31,931 nt of DNA from IMG/VR virus record IMGVR_UViG_3300036985_001493, positions 1-31,931 of that record; one strand, given 5' to 3'. A model generated the notes under the pieces. The model was given only the letters and a program-made list of their open reading frames with translations. It had not been told where the DNA came from and ran no database searches. The DNA is from a virus. The position numbers were made by a program, and so were the translations under genes. This document shows positions 1,286-27,744 of this stretch, one piece after another (the first letter of the stretch is position 1; every line of letters begins with the position of its first letter).

Positions 1286-4041
1286 TACTGTGCTCCTGTT
1301 GGTTGTTGTGCTTGTTGTGCCGCTTGGGCCAACTGTTGTTGCGCTTGCATCGCCGCATCGTGTGCACGTTGCTGTTCTGCTTGCGCTTGATCTAACCCAT
1401 GCTTACGCATATCTGCGTACGCTTGGCTTTCTGCTTCCAACGCAGTCATCTCTTGTGAGTGCTGTTGTTGAACCTGTTGTGCGCTCAACTCTTGGTCGGC
1501 GTTGATCATTGCCACACGCTCTCTTGAGGCGTTGTTTATGTCCGCAATCGCCACTTTGGCCGCGTTGTCTTGGTCTGCTAACTCTTGTTGCAACCCAAGC
1601 TTTGCCTGAATCTCTGCAACCTTGGCCTGCATGTCGCGAACCTTGTCTGCCATCTCGGCCTGCATCTTCTCGCGCTCCAACTGGAATCTGGCCTGCGCCT
1701 CTTCCGTCTTGCGTTTGGTCTCCGCCATTTGTGTTTGGATAAGAGCCTGAGACGTTGGGTCCGCCATGGCAACTTGTTGCATTTGAGTCTGTTTGGCCTG
1801 TTGCATCTGTTGCACCAACTGCTGAATAATTGGGTTGATGCCGCTGAACGTCTTTTCCGCGTCTTGGTTGACCAACTGCGCGGCCATGGCCAACGCCTCT
1901 TGGGCGGCTTGGTCCAGCTTGCGTTCTTCGTTCAACTTGAACGCGTCTTCTCCACCAGCGGCGTGCGACACGTAGTTGCGCATCGATTGCAGGTAGTGCA
2001 GTGTCAGGTGTTGCTTGATGTGCTCCAACATCAAAGGCGTCACACTTGGTCCAATAAGTGGGTTGCCGCCGTACGCGGGGTCCATCATGTACGCCAAGTG
2101 AACCTTCAGGTGGTCGATGTGGCTCTGGTCTGGGAACGCGGCGGCCGCGTGGCCCATTGTCATCTGCACGTTCTCCAGTGCAGGGTTGCTCTCAACCGAG
2201 CCCTGTGGGTTAGGCATGACCTTCTCAATGTCAGGCACCTTCATCAACTTCATCACGCGCATGTGCGCCTCACGCACGTTGTACAACTGCGGGGCCTTGT
2301 CTGCCAACTGCATGACCAGTTGAGCCTGAGTCAGGCGCTGTGTTTCGCTGAAGATGTTGGGGTCAGAGATCGGGCTGACGTCTGAGTTGTCTTCAAAGTC
2401 CTCAACCGCAATCTCGGCGCCGGACTGGTTGTCCATGTCTTCCAAGTACCAGTGGTTGATACGTGATAAGACCTGCAAGCTCTTAGCCTGACTGCGGTGC
2501 AGTCGTGCGTGAATGCTTGAGAACACCTTCGAGCCCTGCTCGATCAGCGCCTGTGTTGTGCCAACTGGTGTGTTATTACCCGCGTCGGCAATACGGCCTT
2601 CGCTGGTCTTTACAACACCTTTAGCGGCGTCTGTTAACCAACCTAATAGGTTGTACAGCACCGAGGACGGTGGGTTGAACGGCAGTGGCATGGCCAACTT
2701 GCGCACGTCGTCCACGCCGGGTGAACCCTCGATCTCTACGATTTGAGTTGGTTCAATGCGGTCTGTCTGTCCACCAATGCGTCCGCCTTTTAGCTTCAAC
2801 ATGGTCTGGCTGTTGTTTACGTGCGCAGAGTCCATCAACGCGCGGAGCGACCCAGTCAGTGCCGCTGAGAGGCCACCGATCAGGTGTGGCATGCCAATCG
2901 CATAAGCGCCGCGCCATGGAATAAACTTGTACTCCACCATCCAGTCAAGCTTGCGCATGCGCTGGTCGCCTGATTGCCAGTTACGGTACAGTGCAACCAC
3001 CTTGCTTGTAATCTCGTCCACCGTCATAACGTAGGGTGCGCGCTTGCCGTCTGTTAACGGGTCGTCTTCCAAACGCAAGAACACCGTGATCTCGTACACA
3101 CGGCGCAAACCGTCTACGTTCTTCGTTGGCTCTGTTAGACCTTCAATTTTGTCGTTGGCCTTTTTTGACTGTGTCTGGTTCTCAGGCAACAGGTCAGAGG
3201 TGTATATCTCAATATCGCGATATTCGCCTATCTCGACACGTTGCTTGAACATGTCTTCGGTAATGTCTTGCTGTTCTGTTACGCGCGCGGCTGAGTAAAA
3301 ATTGGTAGACGCAAACGGCAACAGCACGTTGTCAATTGGAACCCACTCAGGCACCGGCCTGTTCAGGTCCTTGTCCCATCTCCATTTGAGATATTGGGAG
3401 CCACCAAGAGGAAGCTGTGTGAACAACTGCTCCATCTCGTCGCGGTACTCTTCAACCTGTTCGGTCAACTGCCAGTTCAGGAAATTAGCCTTACGCTGTG
3501 CTGTCTCCAAACGCTGTTGGTCAGACTTGCCCTTAATGAACGTGCGCACCAAGCCGTCTGCCGGCAATAACTCTTTGCACGCGTTTGCCGCAAAGTCCAC
3601 ACAGGCCTCTGCCATGATGGGGTGAACCACCTTGGACGCGCCGTCAAACGTTGCGCCACCGGGGGCGTCGTTGCCCATACCTGTGCGGCGAATGCCCTCT
3701 TCGTACTGCTTGTCACGTTGCTTGCGGGACTCGCGGTCCACCTCAATCAGGTCAAGGTACTCGGACGCTAAACTGTCAAGGATGGACTCTTCCATCTCTT
3801 CGGCCAAGTTGGCGTAAAACTCTGGGTTCTGTGACGGCTTTTCTGTCTCCATCATGTTCACCACAACGGACCCGTCCTCCAACTCAATAACCTCAGACTC
3901 TACGTCGTCAATGTCCAAGTCCAGCGCGTTGGCCAGATCTTGGATTTCTTTTTCCGTGTCTACTTCTTTTGTCGTCTCATCTTCAGCAAACGACAACGCG
4001 GACAGGTTACCGCCCTTTTGGAGTGGAATAGTTGGTTGCAT
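1285..4041 (-). CDS. Portal protein
   Basis: A 918-residue protein, large for a portal (P22 gp1 has about 725). It follows the terminase on the same strand. The middle region carries portal-like features: a DGASKVVHPIMAEACVDFAANACKEL helix region near residues 130-160 and an aromatic GGSQYLKWRWD segment. From roughly residue 740 to the end the protein is a long Gln/Ala-rich coiled-coil stretch, as expected of the extended barrel of P22-type portals. In the virion the portal forms the dodecameric DNA gate at one capsid vertex and docks the terminase. Its ATG overlaps the upstream stop as TAATG. The portal role is well supported by content and context; the precise family is not certain. Confidence 0.82.
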   Translation of the reverse strand: MQPTIPLQKGGNLSALSFAEDETTKEVDTEKEIQDLANALDLDIDDVESEVIELEDGSVVVNMMETEKPSQNPEFYANLAEEMEESILDSLASEYLDLIEVDRESRKQRDKQYEEGIRRTGMGNDAPGGATFDGASKVVHPIMAEACVDFAANACKELLPADGLVRTFIKGKSDQQRLETAQRKANFLNWQLTEQVEEYRDEMEQLFTQLPLGGSQYLKWRWDKDLNRPVPEWVPIDNVLLPFASTNFYSAARVTEQQDITEDMFKQRVEIGEYRDIEIYTSDLLPENQTQSKKANDKIEGLTEPTKNVDGLRRVYEITVFLRLEDDPLTDGKRAPYVMTVDEITSKVVALYRNWQSGDQRMRKLDWMVEYKFIPWRGAYAIGMPHLIGGLSAALTGSLRALMDSAHVNNSQTMLKLKGGRIGGQTDRIEPTQIVEIEGSPGVDDVRKLAMPLPFNPPSSVLYNLLGWLTDAAKGVVKTSEGRIADAGNNTPVGTTQALIEQGSKVFSSIHARLHRSQAKSLQVLSRINHWYLEDMDNQSGAEIAVEDFEDNSDVSPISDPNIFSETQRLTQAQLVMQLADKAPQLYNVREAHMRVMKLMKVPDIEKVMPNPQGSVESNPALENVQMTMGHAAAAFPDQSHIDHLKVHLAYMMDPAYGGNPLIGPSVTPLMLEHIKQHLTLHYLQSMRNYVSHAAGGEDAFKLNEERKLDQAAQEALAMAAQLVNQDAEKTFSGINPIIQQLVQQMQQAKQTQMQQVAMADPTSQALIQTQMAETKRKTEEAQARFQLEREKMQAEMADKVRDMQAKVAEIQAKLGLQQELADQDNAAKVAIADINNASRERVAMINADQELSAQQVQQQHSQEMTALEAESQAYADMRKHGLDQAQAEQQRAHDAAMQAQQQLAQAAQQAQQPTGAQ

Positions 4042-5690
4042 TATTGGTTAAAGCCTCTGTATGCTTTACGGATTGGTCCGGCCATGGGCAACATGCCCAA
4101 CGAGCTCATGCCCGCGCTAACTGGCTCGCCTTTTCCGATGTAGTGTCCTGTTTCTGCGGCGTACATAGGCGCCATGGCCATTGCGCCAGCGGGGTTTAAC
4201 ATGGCGATGTCTGCCAAACCAAAACCGCCGGGTAAATTACTGGAGGGTCCACCAACTACTGTGTTGGCCATCTTGCGTGCCTTATAGCGATTCATGCCAT
4301 GTTTCTCTAAAAAGTCTTGACCCAATGAAGAGATACGCTCTTTAGGAGAAGCTTTGTACTCGCTGACCGACGGTTGACGGCGCTCGTAGTTTTGCATCAT
4401 TGCCTCGTCGGCAGAATTATCCATTCTTGAACCGCCACCACGAATGTAGTTTGTCAACTCTTCCATTGTGGGTTGTTGTGTTTGTCCGCCATTACCATAG
4501 CCGCGGACCATCATCTCGGCCTGCATGTCGCGGGGAGAGTACATCATGCCGCCTGCGGCTTTACCCTGAACAGCCGCCGCCGCACGGCGACGCTTGTCTT
4601 CCAACTCTTGCATCTGCCAGTCTTGCGCAAACGGCTGGCGCTGTGCTGGCTCGGTGTCAAGCAAGTAGTCACGTTGGTTCTTTGGGAACCAGTCAGACGG
4701 GTGCTTGGTCACCACCGACTCAGGCAGACCCGACATGCGGGCCTCGTCGCGCCACGCGTTCATCTCTGCGGTTGCTGGACCACGACCCTGCACAGGGCGT
4801 TGAGCAATTGGGTTCATGCCGGTGTAGTTGTGACGCATGGGGTTGATCATCGCGTTAATCGCGTTGACAATGTCTTCTTTGTCCGGGTCAATGCCGCGGG
4901 CCTTGAAGTCAGCAACCACTTTATCCACCAACGCGCCGTGCTTACCCAACAACATCTCGTCTGTCAGTTTGTCAATGCCGGGACCCTCTAGTTGCGCGGC
5001 ACGTTCGGCGAACGGCGCGCTGGCGCTGGTCATCTGTGGGATGTCACCCTCAGTCACGCGCAGGGCATCAAGTCCACCCATTGCGTCGTCACCAACGCCT
5101 GTCAGTGCCTCTTCACCCAACTGCTGGCGCGTTGCCAACTCTTCTGTTGAGGGCGTGAATGACTTGTTCCATGTGCGGTTGCCTGTGCGGCCCGTGTTGG
5201 CCATCGACATGAACTCGTCTTCAGGGAACGCGTTCTGAAACTGGCCCTTAGGGTACGCACGCGCCTTGATGTTTGCTGGCGCCATGCCAAACTGGCTTGG
5301 TAAATCTTGGTAAGGACCCACTGACTCGCGTGTTGCCACGCCTTTTGCGCGCTCTGGCGTAATAATTTGGCCTGTGGGGCTTGTTGCTGTTGGATAAGGA
5401 CGGCCTGTTGCGTCAACAAGCTGGTTTGCAAACGGTGTTTGTTGTTGCATGCGCGCCATTGTCTGCGGCGCGTTGCCTGTTGGCTGAGAAAGCGAGCGGA
5501 TGTGGTCTTCCAACTGCTTTACTTCTTCTGGTGACGGGGGTTTGCCTACAGCTTTTGTGTATTTGCGAATTGCGTCTTGAATTCGGCTTGCAAACTGCTC
5601 AATAACGCCAGTTTTCCCACCCGTACCGTAATGTGGCAGGTTGGCCTGTTCGTACATCATCTGTGTGGGGGTTTTAATTGGGTTTAGCAT
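4041..5690 (-). CDS. 549-residue unknown protein between terminase and portal
   Basis: This gene lies between TerL and the portal, and its stop overlaps the portal start. The N-terminal 70 residues look helical. The centre is Pro/Gln/Met rich. From about residue 380 there are several Gly-Gly motifs with Met (KAAGGMMYSPRDMQ, GYGNGGQTQQ, RGGGSRM). The last 70 residues are rich in Ala, Gly and Met (NPAGAMAMAPMYAAETGHY) and weakly hydrophobic. Glycine-doublet linkers like these occur in many phage virion proteins, so a minor structural or ejected internal protein is plausible. I do not recognise a named family. About 70 bases with no other gene separate it from the terminase stop. Confidence 0.7.
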   Translation of the reverse strand: MLNPIKTPTQMMYEQANLPHYGTGGKTGVIEQFASRIQDAIRKYTKAVGKPPSPEEVKQLEDHIRSLSQPTGNAPQTMARMQQQTPFANQLVDATGRPYPTATSPTGQIITPERAKGVATRESVGPYQDLPSQFGMAPANIKARAYPKGQFQNAFPEDEFMSMANTGRTGNRTWNKSFTPSTEELATRQQLGEEALTGVGDDAMGGLDALRVTEGDIPQMTSASAPFAERAAQLEGPGIDKLTDEMLLGKHGALVDKVVADFKARGIDPDKEDIVNAINAMINPMRHNYTGMNPIAQRPVQGRGPATAEMNAWRDEARMSGLPESVVTKHPSDWFPKNQRDYLLDTEPAQRQPFAQDWQMQELEDKRRRAAAAVQGKAAGGMMYSPRDMQAEMMVRGYGNGGQTQQPTMEELTNYIRGGGSRMDNSADEAMMQNYERRQPSVSEYKASPKERISSLGQDFLEKHGMNRYKARKMANTVVGGPSSNLPGGFGLADIAMLNPAGAMAMAPMYAAETGHYIGKGEPVSAGMSSLGMLPMAGPIRKAYRGFNQ

Positions 5691-5760: not shown

Positions 5761-7200
5761 TCACGCGGCGTAGGGGTTATTGACCCTGTTTCGCGCTATG
5801 TCGTCTGCGTGTGCGTAGTCTCTTGACGGCAGAGGGTCCAACAAGAGCCAACCTGAGTCGCGCAGGACCCTGAGTGCCTGTGAAAGTGCGTCAACATAGT
5901 CGTCGTGGCCTTTTGCTTCCGGAAAAGAGCACACTTGGCGGATAAAACGCTTGGCCCACGGGGCTACCTCGCCCGGAATTGCTGGGTCTTCTGGCACGTA
6001 CACCCTTCCTTTTGCGATTAGAGGCGCCACAATGTTCATCCTCTGCACCTTGTCGGCTCTTCCGGGGTTGTATGACCTCACCGGTAGGTGCGCGGCCTGC
6101 AGTTCTTGAATCAATGAGATACCCGCGGACTTATCTTCCATGAGGATGAGGTCCGTTTTCTTGCCCTTGGCGAACGTGTTGTCCGCGCCGTACACAACCT
6201 CCTTGTAGTCCTCGATCACTTTGCGGCGCAACTCAGGGTACGACAGGTGGTTGTCCCACGCGTCAAGTAAAATGCAACTTGTTGCAAAATCATCTTGCTC
6301 GAATACACCCAGCGCAATGCACGCGGTCGGGTCGTTGTGTGTTTTCTCGGAGGTCGCTGGGTCGTATGACACCAGCACGTACTCCAGCACGGGTGTTGGT
6401 TTGTGCGCGGGCCAGTTTCTAAACCATTTACGCTTGACAATACCCGCGTTCTCTGGGTCCAAGATCTCGCCGTAAATTTCCTGACGACCTAAGTCCGTGC
6501 CCTCGTACGCTTCTAGTTGTTTAAAAAAAGTTGAGGAGAGGTTGGCCCTGTTGTCGTATGAGGATGCTTTGGACACGTACACGTCGCCGCCAACCTTGCC
6601 CTCGTTCAGGTCCGTGATTAGTTCCAGCGGTTTGGGTGTGGTGGTGATGATCGACTGCACACGCTCGATGCGCGGGTCAGTCAGACGCAAAGTAAACTGA
6701 ATCTGGTCGTACGCGTCGTCGATGTACTCGAACGCACACAACTCGTCTGCCCACATGCCGTGCCACTGTGTACCCCGGAAGCGCTCTGGCTCAGACGCCG
6801 GGATGCCGCGGATCATGCTTCCATTCTTTAAGGTAAGCTCAAACAGCGACTTGTTGTAGTCCTTGATCAGCGACGAGGGTATGATGTTAAGAAGCCCTGA
6901 GTCTCCCTCAAAGCACGTTGCGCGAATGTCGTTTGATGTTGGCGCCGTGACCAACCAGCGGGTCTTGTCGTAGATCGCCGCCCTTAGTCCAAGCCAGTTG
7001 GACGCGGTGTGGGTCTTGCCGGAACCCCGGCCGGCTAAAAGTAAAAAGGTATCGTACTCCCCGTCGTCAGGCTCTCGTTGGTGCGGTAGTGCGGTAAGCT
7101 CCCACCTCACACGCCACAACGCTAGGTCCAGTTGCTCCTTGGGCCATCCCTTGTTCTGGTCTGCAAACGCCTTGAGTAGCTTTTGCTGTGTGTCGTTCAT
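5761..7200 (-). CDS. Terminase large subunit (TerL)
   Basis: A 479-residue packaging ATPase/nuclease. Counted from ATG 7200, the Walker A motif GRGSGKTH is at about 57-64, the Walker B MWADE at about 149-153 and the coupling motif ITTTPKP near 185-191. The RNase H-like nuclease has its acidic residues in SYDPATSEK (about 279), LMEDKS (about 355) and GHDDYVDALSQ (about 434). It pumps DNA through the portal and cuts the concatemer. ATG 7200 forms an ATGA overlap with the stop of the Hint gene; an in-frame ATG at 7206 is the alternative. The ATPase core is not interrupted by an intein, which matters because a Hint-like protein is encoded directly upstream. Confidence 0.93.
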   Translation of the reverse strand: MNDTQQKLLKAFADQNKGWPKEQLDLALWRVRWELTALPHQREPDDGEYDTFLLLAGRGSGKTHTASNWLGLRAAIYDKTRWLVTAPTSNDIRATCFEGDSGLLNIIPSSLIKDYNKSLFELTLKNGSMIRGIPASEPERFRGTQWHGMWADELCAFEYIDDAYDQIQFTLRLTDPRIERVQSIITTTPKPLELITDLNEGKVGGDVYVSKASSYDNRANLSSTFFKQLEAYEGTDLGRQEIYGEILDPENAGIVKRKWFRNWPAHKPTPVLEYVLVSYDPATSEKTHNDPTACIALGVFEQDDFATSCILLDAWDNHLSYPELRRKVIEDYKEVVYGADNTFAKGKKTDLILMEDKSAGISLIQELQAAHLPVRSYNPGRADKVQRMNIVAPLIAKGRVYVPEDPAIPGEVAPWAKRFIRQVCSFPEAKGHDDYVDALSQALRVLRDSGWLLLDPLPSRDYAHADDIARNRVNNPYAA

Positions 7201-8069
7201 AGGCATACTGTCAGGTACCCCTCGCTGATTAGGAACGTGTTGTTCGGGTCTGCGGTCTTGATGTGCATGCAGGGCCTAATGTCCACTTTGGTAACGTGGG
7301 TAATCCTGCGCATCTCCTCGTAATGCGGCCGGCGCACAGGGATCTGGTCCTCGACCAGTTTTAGGTTGGTCCTGAACACCATGTGGTAATTTTTTTTGAG
7401 TTCTGCGATTTCTGTACGTATGCCTAAGGATTCTGTTAGGTTGTGGATTGACCTGAACAGCCGCAGGTCCTTAATGTTGAACCTGAACTTTGCCGAAACC
7501 TTGCTGTGGCACTTTGGCCGTGAGGCGCATACCCCCCGGAGTATAGCCAGTCGTTGCTCAAAGGATGAGAACAGGTACTCTTCTGGAATGTGGTCTGGTA
7601 TCTTGCCGTAACTCTCAATCAGCTTGGACGTGATGAGCGTGCGCTTGTCCCTGTGTGGGTCCCCGATCCACACGCCTAGGTCGTAGGGGTGGAGGGGTAG
7701 CGGCTTGGCTTCTGGCTTAATCGGGTAGCACGTTGGCATCCTGCACCAGCCCGTGTCTATGGTGGCTAGGTTCTGTGGCGCGTAGATGGGAAGGCTGTAC
7801 TCTTCTTTGGGGAATTGTTTGCGTCCCCACTTGGACAGTGTAAGGAACGTCTTGCTGTCGTACACCGGAATGCCGGTGCGGCTATCCACCACCAACGTCA
7901 GGCCGTCCTTGGTCCAGATCTTATGACACACCACCGGCGTGTACTCCTGAACAGAAACAACCATGACGGGCAGGCCCGTGTAATCAAAAACCTCATCCCC
8001 CGGTTTGATAAACCTTGCTAACTGCCATCCGGCAGTGGTGGGAATGGGGGTACGTGCGTCGATTCCCAT
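7197..8069 (-). CDS. Stand-alone degenerate Hint (intein-like) protein with homing-endonuclease remnant
   Basis: A 290-residue protein built like an intein but coded as a separate gene. Residues 6-27 match intein block A (RTPIPTTAGWQLARFIKPGD). Residues 52-70 resemble block B, but the usual His is Thr. LGVWIGD (131-137) and RLAILRGVCASR (173-184) resemble the two LAGLIDADG-type endonuclease blocks; the second has lost its acidic residue. Residues 262-290 resemble blocks F and G (VDIRPCMHIKTAD, then FLISEGYLTVCL). Cys1, the block B His and the terminal His-Asn are all absent, so splicing is not expected. An in-frame stop lies five codons upstream of ATG 8069. It overlaps TerL by ATGA, taking the slot where a small terminase often sits. 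Confidence 0.7.
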   Translation of the reverse strand: MGIDARTPIPTTAGWQLARFIKPGDEVFDYTGLPVMVVSVQEYTPVVCHKIWTKDGLTLVVDSRTGIPVYDSKTFLTLSKWGRKQFPKEEYSLPIYAPQNLATIDTGWCRMPTCYPIKPEAKPLPLHPYDLGVWIGDPHRDKRTLITSKLIESYGKIPDHIPEEYLFSSFEQRLAILRGVCASRPKCHSKVSAKFRFNIKDLRLFRSIHNLTESLGIRTEIAELKKNYHMVFRTNLKLVEDQIPVRRPHYEEMRRITHVTKVDIRPCMHIKTADPNNTFLISEGYLTVCL

Positions 8070-8261: not shown

Positions 8262-8496
8262 AGATGAGTACTAAGGTATACAGTTTTAAAATTATGCGGT
8301 TGAGGGTGTTACAAATACCCACACTGACAGCAGGGTCTATATACCCCCGGGGGTATATGTACACATAAATGTTAACAAATCAGGGTTTTTGTAAAAATAT
8401 ACAGGAATTGCAAAAACTTGCTGGCTGTGGGGGCCCCCCGCCCGGGTTGTCCGATGGGACCCTAAATGGGGTGTCGCTAAAAAACAACGCCCCCTC

Positions 8497-8655
8497 ATAC
8501 CCTACGGGGTATAGTAGCATACCCTACGGGGTATAGCATCATACCCTACTGGGTATAGTACCCGCTCGGCCGCATACCCTACTGGGTATAGTAGGCACCG
8601 AGGCGCATACCCTACTGGGTATAGTATGCACCGAGGCGCATACCCTACTGGGTAC
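8497..8655. repeat. Six palindromic iterons ATACCC-N4-GGGTAT
   Basis: Six 16-bp copies of ATACCC-TACG/TACT-GGGTAT start at 8497, 8519, 8541, 8574, 8607 and 8640. The first three are 22 bases apart (two helical turns). The last three are 33 bases apart (three turns) and are separated by GCACCGAGGCG-like spacers. The last copy has GGGTAC. The phased spacing suggests binding by a dimeric protein on one face of the DNA, as in an iteron origin or an operator array. A related perfect palindrome lies at 8341. Confidence 0.85.
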
Positions 8656-8674
8656 AGTATGCCCGCGGCCAACA

Positions 8675-8829
8675 TGGCACGGACCTTGCTAGCCTAGCAA
8701 GTATCATGCCAACGTGGACATGGCACGCATGTTGCTACTAGCAAGAAGCATGCCAAGGCACACTGGCACGTATGTTGCTATTAGCAAGAAGCATGCCAAC
8801 GTGGCCGCGGCACGTATCTTGCTAGTGTG
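8675..8829. repeat. Array of 35-bp palindromes with TTGCTA / TAGCAA cores
   Basis: Three full copies (about 8675-8711, 8721-8755, 8764-8798) and a half copy (from 8809). Each starts TGGCACG, has an inner TTGCTA...TAGCAA inverted repeat, and ends CATGCCA, which pairs with the start. Copies can fold into hairpins and are separated by 8-10 bases. A weak open frame through this array is best explained by the repeats. Confidence 0.8.
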
Positions 8830-27354: not shown

Positions 27355-27744
27355 ATGGCAACGAAATCCAAATACGAGTTTAAACCGGAGATGTGCGACC
27401 AACTGATAGAGTTGGGCAAGGTAGGCGCGTCCCAAAAAATGATGTTTGCAAGCGTCGGAATTAGTTCCGCGGCCGCGCAGACGTTTAAGAAAAACCACCC
27501 AGAGTTTGCTGAAGCACTGGACATGGCTATTACCCACTCACAAGCTTACTGGGAAACCCAGTTGCTTGCTAACGTGGAGAACAAGGCATTTAACAGCAGG
27601 GTGGCTGAGATAGCGTTGAGGGGTCAATTCCCCTCTGACTATCGCGACGACAAGAGCAGTAAGCTTGAAGTCAAGGCGGACGTCGTGTTGGATTTTTCTG
27701 GTGCAGTTACCGATTTGATCACGGCGCTCAAAAAAGCGGCGTGA
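27355..27744 (+). CDS. Terminase small subunit-like protein (TerS)
   Basis: A 129-residue protein. The N-terminal part has an HTH-like DQLIELGKVGASQKMMFASV then GISSAAAQTFKKNHPEFAEA, followed by a helical THSQAYWETQLLANVENKAF, LRGQFPSDYRDD and a C-terminal segment. That order (HTH with a GIS turn, hPEF, sQAyWE, FPsdYRDd) fits phage small terminase subunits, which bind pac or cos DNA and feed it to TerL. It lies about 20 kb from TerL. No strong ribosome binding site is visible before ATG 27355. It is flanked by hairpins on both sides. Confidence 0.6.
   Translation: MATKSKYEFKPEMCDQLIELGKVGASQKMMFASVGISSAAAQTFKKNHPEFAEALDMAITHSQAYWETQLLANVENKAFNSRVAEIALRGQFPSDYRDDKSSKLEVKADVVLDFSGAVTDLITALKKAA

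Follow-up and report, generated by a model that had tools for sequence, protein, structure and literature searches.

A phage gene beside TerL is almost certainly a free-standing class 3-type intein that has lost its splicing residues

Inteins are viewed as parasites or, at most, as switches, and the best-known case of a domesticated intein, HO, has retained its endonuclease. The gene described here encodes a stand-alone protein with a Hint domain and a LAGLIDADG domain (hereafter the Hint protein) next to the terminase gene TerL of a phage, and several known systems resemble it in part. The class 3 inteins, defined in PMC7664689 and PMC3196547 and found in phage TerL, portal and DnaB (for example 6rix and 6bs8), are like the Hint protein in full-length fold and at both termini, but they have exteins and retain the block B His and Trp, the block G Thr and the terminal His-Asn. 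HO and WHO of yeast are also stand-alone intein genes without exteins, and WHO adjoins its target gene FBA1 (PMC7282813). They have a zinc finger, an active endonuclease and no block G, whereas the Hint protein has block G, lacks a zinc finger and has lost the Asp pair. WhiA (DUF199) is a degenerate, non-catalytic LAGLIDADG protein that has been kept as a regulator in many bacteria and relies mainly on a separate HTH domain for DNA binding (PMC3781837). The Hint protein is likewise a retained, degenerate LAGLIDADG protein, but WhiA is bacterial, lacks a Hint domain and has the HTH that is missing here; in the Hint protein nothing follows block G. The HK97 HNH protein (gp74 type), an active nuclease that cooperates with terminase in cos cleavage (PMC10448857), is another endonuclease-derived gene product encoded directly upstream of terminase, with a different fold. 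Finally, the Arth_1007 intein pseudogene of Arthrobacter FB24 (PMC3196547) is also a dead class 3 intein outside its normal host gene. It is one decayed copy with residual exteins, while the Hint gene belongs to a conserved, unbroken family that ends exactly at the intein boundaries.

The Hint gene overlaps TerL at the head of a leftward gene run. In the window (the whole stretch of viral DNA analyzed, 31,931 nucleotides), it is the first gene of the run and is followed in order by TerL, an unassigned protein and portal. The first-pass annotation had placed it at 7197-8069, and an ORF of 290 aa is indeed found there on the minus strand. TerL is uninterrupted, as that annotation had also claimed, with Terminase_6N followed by Terminase_6C in a single complete frame by profile matches, and the 3' end of the Hint gene extends over the TerL start. 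Such an overlap is found in about 80 of 90 relatives. A Shine-Dalgarno-like GAGGGG sits within the codons of the invariant residues Glu283-Gly284 of the Hint protein, and the invariance of these two residues may be explained by the ribosome-binding sequence that their codons hold. The features of the two genes are:

7197..8069, minus strand: stand-alone Hint and LAGLIDADG protein, 290 aa (ORF, TerL-intein profiles, AlphaFold2 fold, structure matches)
7770..8066, minus strand: N-terminal half of the Hint domain with blocks A and B, residues 2 to about 100 (class 3 alignment, VIA-align; the residue-100 boundary is approximate)
7335..7724, minus strand: LAGLIDADG-like domain, about residues 116-245 (alignment and residue tallies; boundaries approximate)
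7200..7331, minus strand: C-terminal part of the Hint domain with blocks F and G, residues 247-290, ending at the position of the intein terminal Asn
7218..7223, minus strand: Shine-Dalgarno-like GAGGGG, read from the sequence, likely the TerL ribosome-binding site
7197..7206, minus strand: overlap of Hint stop and TerL start, ATGCCTATGA, read from the sequence
5761..7206, minus strand: TerL, uninterrupted, 481 aa (PF03237 and PF17289 in order)

The unassigned protein between TerL and portal (window 4041-5690, 549 aa) has no match to any family. Its slot is occupied in related phages by proteins of very different sizes, including one of 923 aa in G009 and a PcfJ-like protein in DSL-LC04.

Sequence profiles and predicted structure indicate that the Hint gene is, almost certainly, a complete class 3-type intein made free-standing, with gene ends at the intein boundaries. 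Its product matches PHROG profiles built on intein-containing TerL proteins (phrog_19299, E=2e-12; phrog_15, E=1e-9), a likeness that by profile score is far beyond chance. The best matches in a PDB sequence search were class 3 DnaB inteins, with weak E-values. An AlphaFold2 model built on an alignment of 33 relatives (pLDDT 89.9, pTM 0.88) has the predicted fold of a complete intein, with a Hint domain and a LAGLIDADG domain. When it was compared to the PDB with Foldseek, PI-SceI and archaeal VMA intein-endonucleases ranked first and class 3 DnaB inteins next, and the matches to the LAGLIDADG proteins PI-SceI, TliVMA and I-DmoI extend over the full length. VIA-align gave Z scores of 20 to 22 for the model against class 3 DnaB inteins and PI-SceI; the latter, which has the intein-endonuclease fold in common with the Hint protein, scored about 20. 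Model residues 2 to 290 were placed on intein residue 1 to the last residue in each case (6rix 1 to 145, 6bs8 1 to 139, PI-SceI 1 to 454), so the start and stop codons of the Hint gene lie at the intein boundaries. The start Met immediately precedes intein residue 1, the stop codon stands at the intein end, and exteins are absent. Hint blocks A, B, F and G and a LAGLIDADG-like insertion had been noticed in the sequence beforehand; they are present, and the structure prediction that had been proposed as a check returned a full intein with an endonuclease domain.

The Hint family is closely related to class 3 inteins but lacks residues needed for splicing. The family profile matches end to end the TerL intein of Synechococcus phage B23 (E=4e-40), a portal intein and inteins of other genes, and most of these matching inteins combine Ala1 with the WCT motif, as is characteristic of class 3. 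The portal intein is a class 3 intein (Ala1, WCT) within the portal protein of L056 (L056:3781-6960). Position 1 in 33 diverse Hint members is Gly, Ala or Ser, and Ala or Gly in all but one, which is the non-nucleophilic first residue of class 3. The earlier remark that the protein lacks Cys1, the block B His and the terminal His-Asn is borne out by the alignment. The missing Cys1, however, is ancestral and no sign of decay: in the nearest inteins, which belong to class 3, position 1 is naturally Ala or some other residue. The WCT motif is incomplete, as neither the block B Trp nor the block G Thr occurs in any of the 33 diverse members. None of the 33 has the block B His or an Asn at the aligned terminal position either, and the His-Asn terminus is missing from all 76 Hint members tallied. 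Block F Cys267 is invariant, in a register that is ambiguous by two residues relative to the class 3 nucleophile. With the residues for splicing gone, the Hint protein is, judging by its sequence, splicing-dead.

DNA cleavage has probably been lost as well. The two LAGLIDADG aspartates occur together in 0 of 76 Hint members, and each member checked is without at least one of them. Many members keep a single Asp, the first in the window's group and the second in the L108 group; in the window's protein, Asp137 is present and the second catalytic Asp is replaced (GVCASR). In an unrooted tree, one fully supported branch parts 17 Hint family members from 15 inteins. The tree and the distribution of the gene are consistent with a single origin, with the gene entering once, in the ancestor of a clade of freshwater phages, at the position directly upstream of TerL. 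As for the gene in which the intein originally resided, the closest relatives are compatible with an origin in TerL, but portal, DnaB and other genes also harbor class 3 inteins.

The Hint gene is under purifying selection throughout the clade. TerL-based searches gave 95 distinct loci in the Hint clade (TerL identity at least 75%), six of which end too near TerL to be tested. The search for relatives with the same gene order that had been suggested found the Hint ORF in all 89 testable loci, with no broken copy, although some copies are cut by the contig end. The sample covers TerL identities of at least 75% (Hint clade) and about 53% (sister clade), and all Hint family members found here are metagenomic. 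Between the window and its close relatives, dN/dS of the Hint gene is 0.06 to 0.20. Over 250 pairs the median is 0.128 for Hint and 0.047 for TerL, and the Hint value is at most 0.32 in every pair measured. Hint and TerL distances are correlated (Spearman 0.80, n=76), with Hint diverging much faster. Invariant residues are spread from 1 to 290, and purifying selection acts along the whole protein. The family has invariants of its own: Ala18, Gln41, Glu213 and Thr272 are near-invariant and are absent from seven reference inteins. Net charge is +6 to +24 in all Hint members, compared to -5 to +9 in the same seven inteins, and this positive charge is suggestive of DNA binding. Overall the Hint gene is best described as a domesticated class 3 intein that is dead for splicing, probably dead for cleavage, and likely put to a new job near packaging. 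UniProt protein A0A6J7WN65 from an uncultured Caudovirales phage ('DOD-type homing endonuclease domain-containing protein') is 42% identical over its full length, with a TM-score of 0.91, and is apparently a member of the family that is already in the database under an automatic name. A prior description of such a protein was not found in the open-licence literature.

The Hint gene occupies a slot that holds the small terminase gene, TerS, in related phages. The nearest sister clade (for example MW202545) has TerL about 53% identical. The Hint gene was found in 0 of 80 sister-clade loci, and in all 71 sister loci listed with upstream sequence a TerS gene lies no more than about 750 bp from TerL, in the same position directly upstream of TerL as the Hint gene. 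The first-pass description of this position as the usual small-terminase slot is thus accurate, since every sister-clade locus examined has TerS and no Hint gene there. Searches of whole contigs with PF20901 and PF03592 found no TerS in the Hint clade, a weak result because PF20901 also missed several sister genomes. This test was replaced by a clade-specific profile of sister TerS, which found no TerS in six near-complete Hint-clade contigs. A core-gene comparison of the window with these six contigs revealed a different candidate:

27355..27744, plus strand: TerS-like protein, 129 aa (phrog_309 at E=1e-7, matches to annotated TerS, core gene, Foldseek match to Sf6 TerS)

This protein is conserved in all six near-complete relatives and is encoded in the replication module, far from TerL. 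It matches TerS families of PHROG, phrog_309 among them, and annotated TerS of Rhizobium, Listonella and Vibrio phages, and it has a helical tail resembling that of TerS. TerS of phage Sf6 takes the top six places in a Foldseek search with its AlphaFold model, at weak E-values and a modest Z of 7. The 129-aa protein was not found in four sister genomes tested. From sequence and model, it is likely the true small terminase of the Hint clade. TerS thus most likely resides in the replication module, with the Hint protein as an extra component. Replacement of TerS by the Hint protein had first been suggested by the mutually exclusive occupancy of the slot, and the TerS-like core gene has led to its rejection for the most part.

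Two observations concern the sister-clade TerS genes themselves. Their products (L133-L212) have at least three different N-terminal domains and a common C-terminal tail, VVIEHNxNVFGELLKxIKxxRQAE, a pattern that in sequence looks like domain swapping around a TerL-binding tail. In Caulobacter phage RLK (L032:2445-3113) and in L144 near position 774, TerS and the full TerL are separated by a short ORF whose only resemblance is to the TerL ATPase domain.

HNH genes are found on both sides of the Hint gene. Terminase neighborhoods are hot spots of homing endonuclease genes (PMC10448857; also PMC5304195). The earlier statement that Hint lies directly upstream of TerL is correct for most loci; in about ten contigs (L071:2-262; L248-L257) the two are separated by an inserted HNH gene of endonuclease VII-like type, and tight coupling of Hint and TerL is therefore not essential. 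Replacement of Hint by an HNH gene in L071 was considered and rejected, as comparison shows that the HNH gene lies as an insertion between Hint and TerL and that the contig breaks off within it. In L113 another HNH gene is immediately upstream of Hint. Small genes beginning MKRxNPxT are also found upstream of Hint (L113:526-1041; L083, L096, L108, L112, L115 and L119), and their N-terminal domain is common with an HNH endonuclease. The HNH part is present in L113 and apparently missing in the others.

Upstream of the Hint gene, about 1 kb of apparently non-coding DNA separates it from a divergent rightward operon. This gap contains two families of repeats:

8341..8655: array of a palindromic 16-mer, ATACCCNNNNGGGTAT, candidate binding sites
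8675..8824: second repeat family, TGGCACGNATNTTGCTA, direct and inverted copies

The window contains 8 matches to ATACCCNNNNGGGTAT where 0.03 are expected. Seven of the palindromes are in 8341-8655, the last six at 22 or 33 bp spacing. Of 52 relatives, 37 have arrays of other sequence upstream of Hint and 18 have DnaA boxes there. The corresponding figures upstream of sister-clade TerS are 4 of 57 and 0 of 57, a contrast confounded by the largely coding nature of the sister region. A scan of the intergenic region for sigma-70 promoters found nothing. The repeat region at 8341-8824 may be a replication origin.

The reading preferred here is that the Hint protein acts as an accessory DNA-binding factor of the packaging operon, with a probability of roughly 0.4 for this functional part. 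The loss of both activities, the retained fold, the lasting linkage to TerL and the positive charge point to binding rather than catalysis. WhiA, despite its use of an HTH to bind DNA, and the HK97 HNH protein are precedents for this reading, as HO/WHO is for a stand-alone intein gene. A class 3-type intein would have been freed as a separate gene upstream of TerL in the clade ancestor, and it would have lost the splicing residues and the endonuclease Asp pair while the fold and the gene were retained under purifying selection. The overlapping stop and start would couple production of the Hint protein to that of TerL. The Hint protein would be a DNA binder that neither splices nor cleaves, probably using the old LAGLIDADG DNA-binding surface to recognize target sites on the phage DNA. 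These sites may lie in the repeat-rich stretch that immediately precedes the Hint gene, though the repeats there could serve another protein. In this role it may aid terminase in starting or controlling packaging, with the TerS function supplied by the unlinked TerS-like gene. A packaging role, which the first-pass annotation had raised, is possible, and it is unlikely that the Hint protein is itself the small terminase, given the TerS-like protein encoded elsewhere. The fuller proposal is more doubtful. It holds that a released class 3 intein, with both activities lost, became a third, site-recognizing component of packaging, or of packaging and the origin, made together with TerL and retained by all phages of the clade, while TerS is in another operon.

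Two other functions are unlikely. The Hint protein might be a DNA-binding regulator of late transcription or of a replication origin, acting by binding to the palindromes that lie between the divergent operons. As the first gene of the late operon, Hint directly faces the repeat-rich gap, relatives often have repeats or DnaA boxes in the same place, and WhiA is a precedent (PMC3781837). However, the repeats vary among subclades and are missing by the repeat test in 15 of 52 relatives, and the constant partner of Hint is TerL and no regulatory gene. Equally unlikely is a selfish lineage, in which the Hint protein still nicks or homes with an altered active site or in which a dead copy shields the TerL region from active homing endonucleases. 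The concentration of homing endonuclease genes near terminases (PMC10448857), the HNH genes flanking Hint in several relatives, the single Asp retained by many members, and the ability of HO/WHO, a stand-alone intein gene, to home beside its target (PMC7282813) all favor it. No member has both aspartates, though, and Hint is universal within its clade, absent outside it and tracks TerL, whereas homing genes are patchy.

The remaining explanations have much lower odds. That the Hint protein took over from the small terminase and performs its job is improbable: it sits in the slot held by TerS at the sister loci, and the sister TerS profile has no match in the near-complete Hint-clade contigs, but its Hint/LAGLIDADG fold over residues 1-290 is not that of TerS, and the clade has a different TerS-like core gene with Sf6 TerS as top Foldseek match and a TerS-like helical tail. 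It is more improbable again that only the 3' end of the gene counts, as the ribosome-binding site and start region of TerL, and that the protein is incidental. The GAGGGG in the Glu283-Gly284 codons and the overlapping start fit this, but selection over the whole protein, invariant residues from 1 to 290 and the ten contigs with an HNH gene between Hint and TerL do not. Least probable, and hardly tenable, is a decaying intein relic. Although the catalytic residues for both activities are gone, as in the Arth_1007 pseudogene (PMC3196547), there is no broken copy at 89 loci, dN/dS has a median of about 0.13 and never exceeds 0.32 in the measured pairs, and the family has its own invariant residues. 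Of the two readings offered by the first-pass annotation, the relic is contradicted by these results and the domesticated fold is favored by the same unbroken copies, low dN/dS and family invariants (for example Ala18, Gln41 and Glu213, found in the proposed check of the remaining residues).

In the Hint family, an entire intein persists as a gene of its own although splicing and the catalytic pair of the endonuclease are gone, and it does so at all 89 testable loci of a phage clade that is widespread. Should a function be found, it would show how a phage can recruit a defunct mobile element for its packaging module or for the vicinity of that module. It would also test directly whether genes of the homing-endonuclease kind next to terminases are parasitic or functional.
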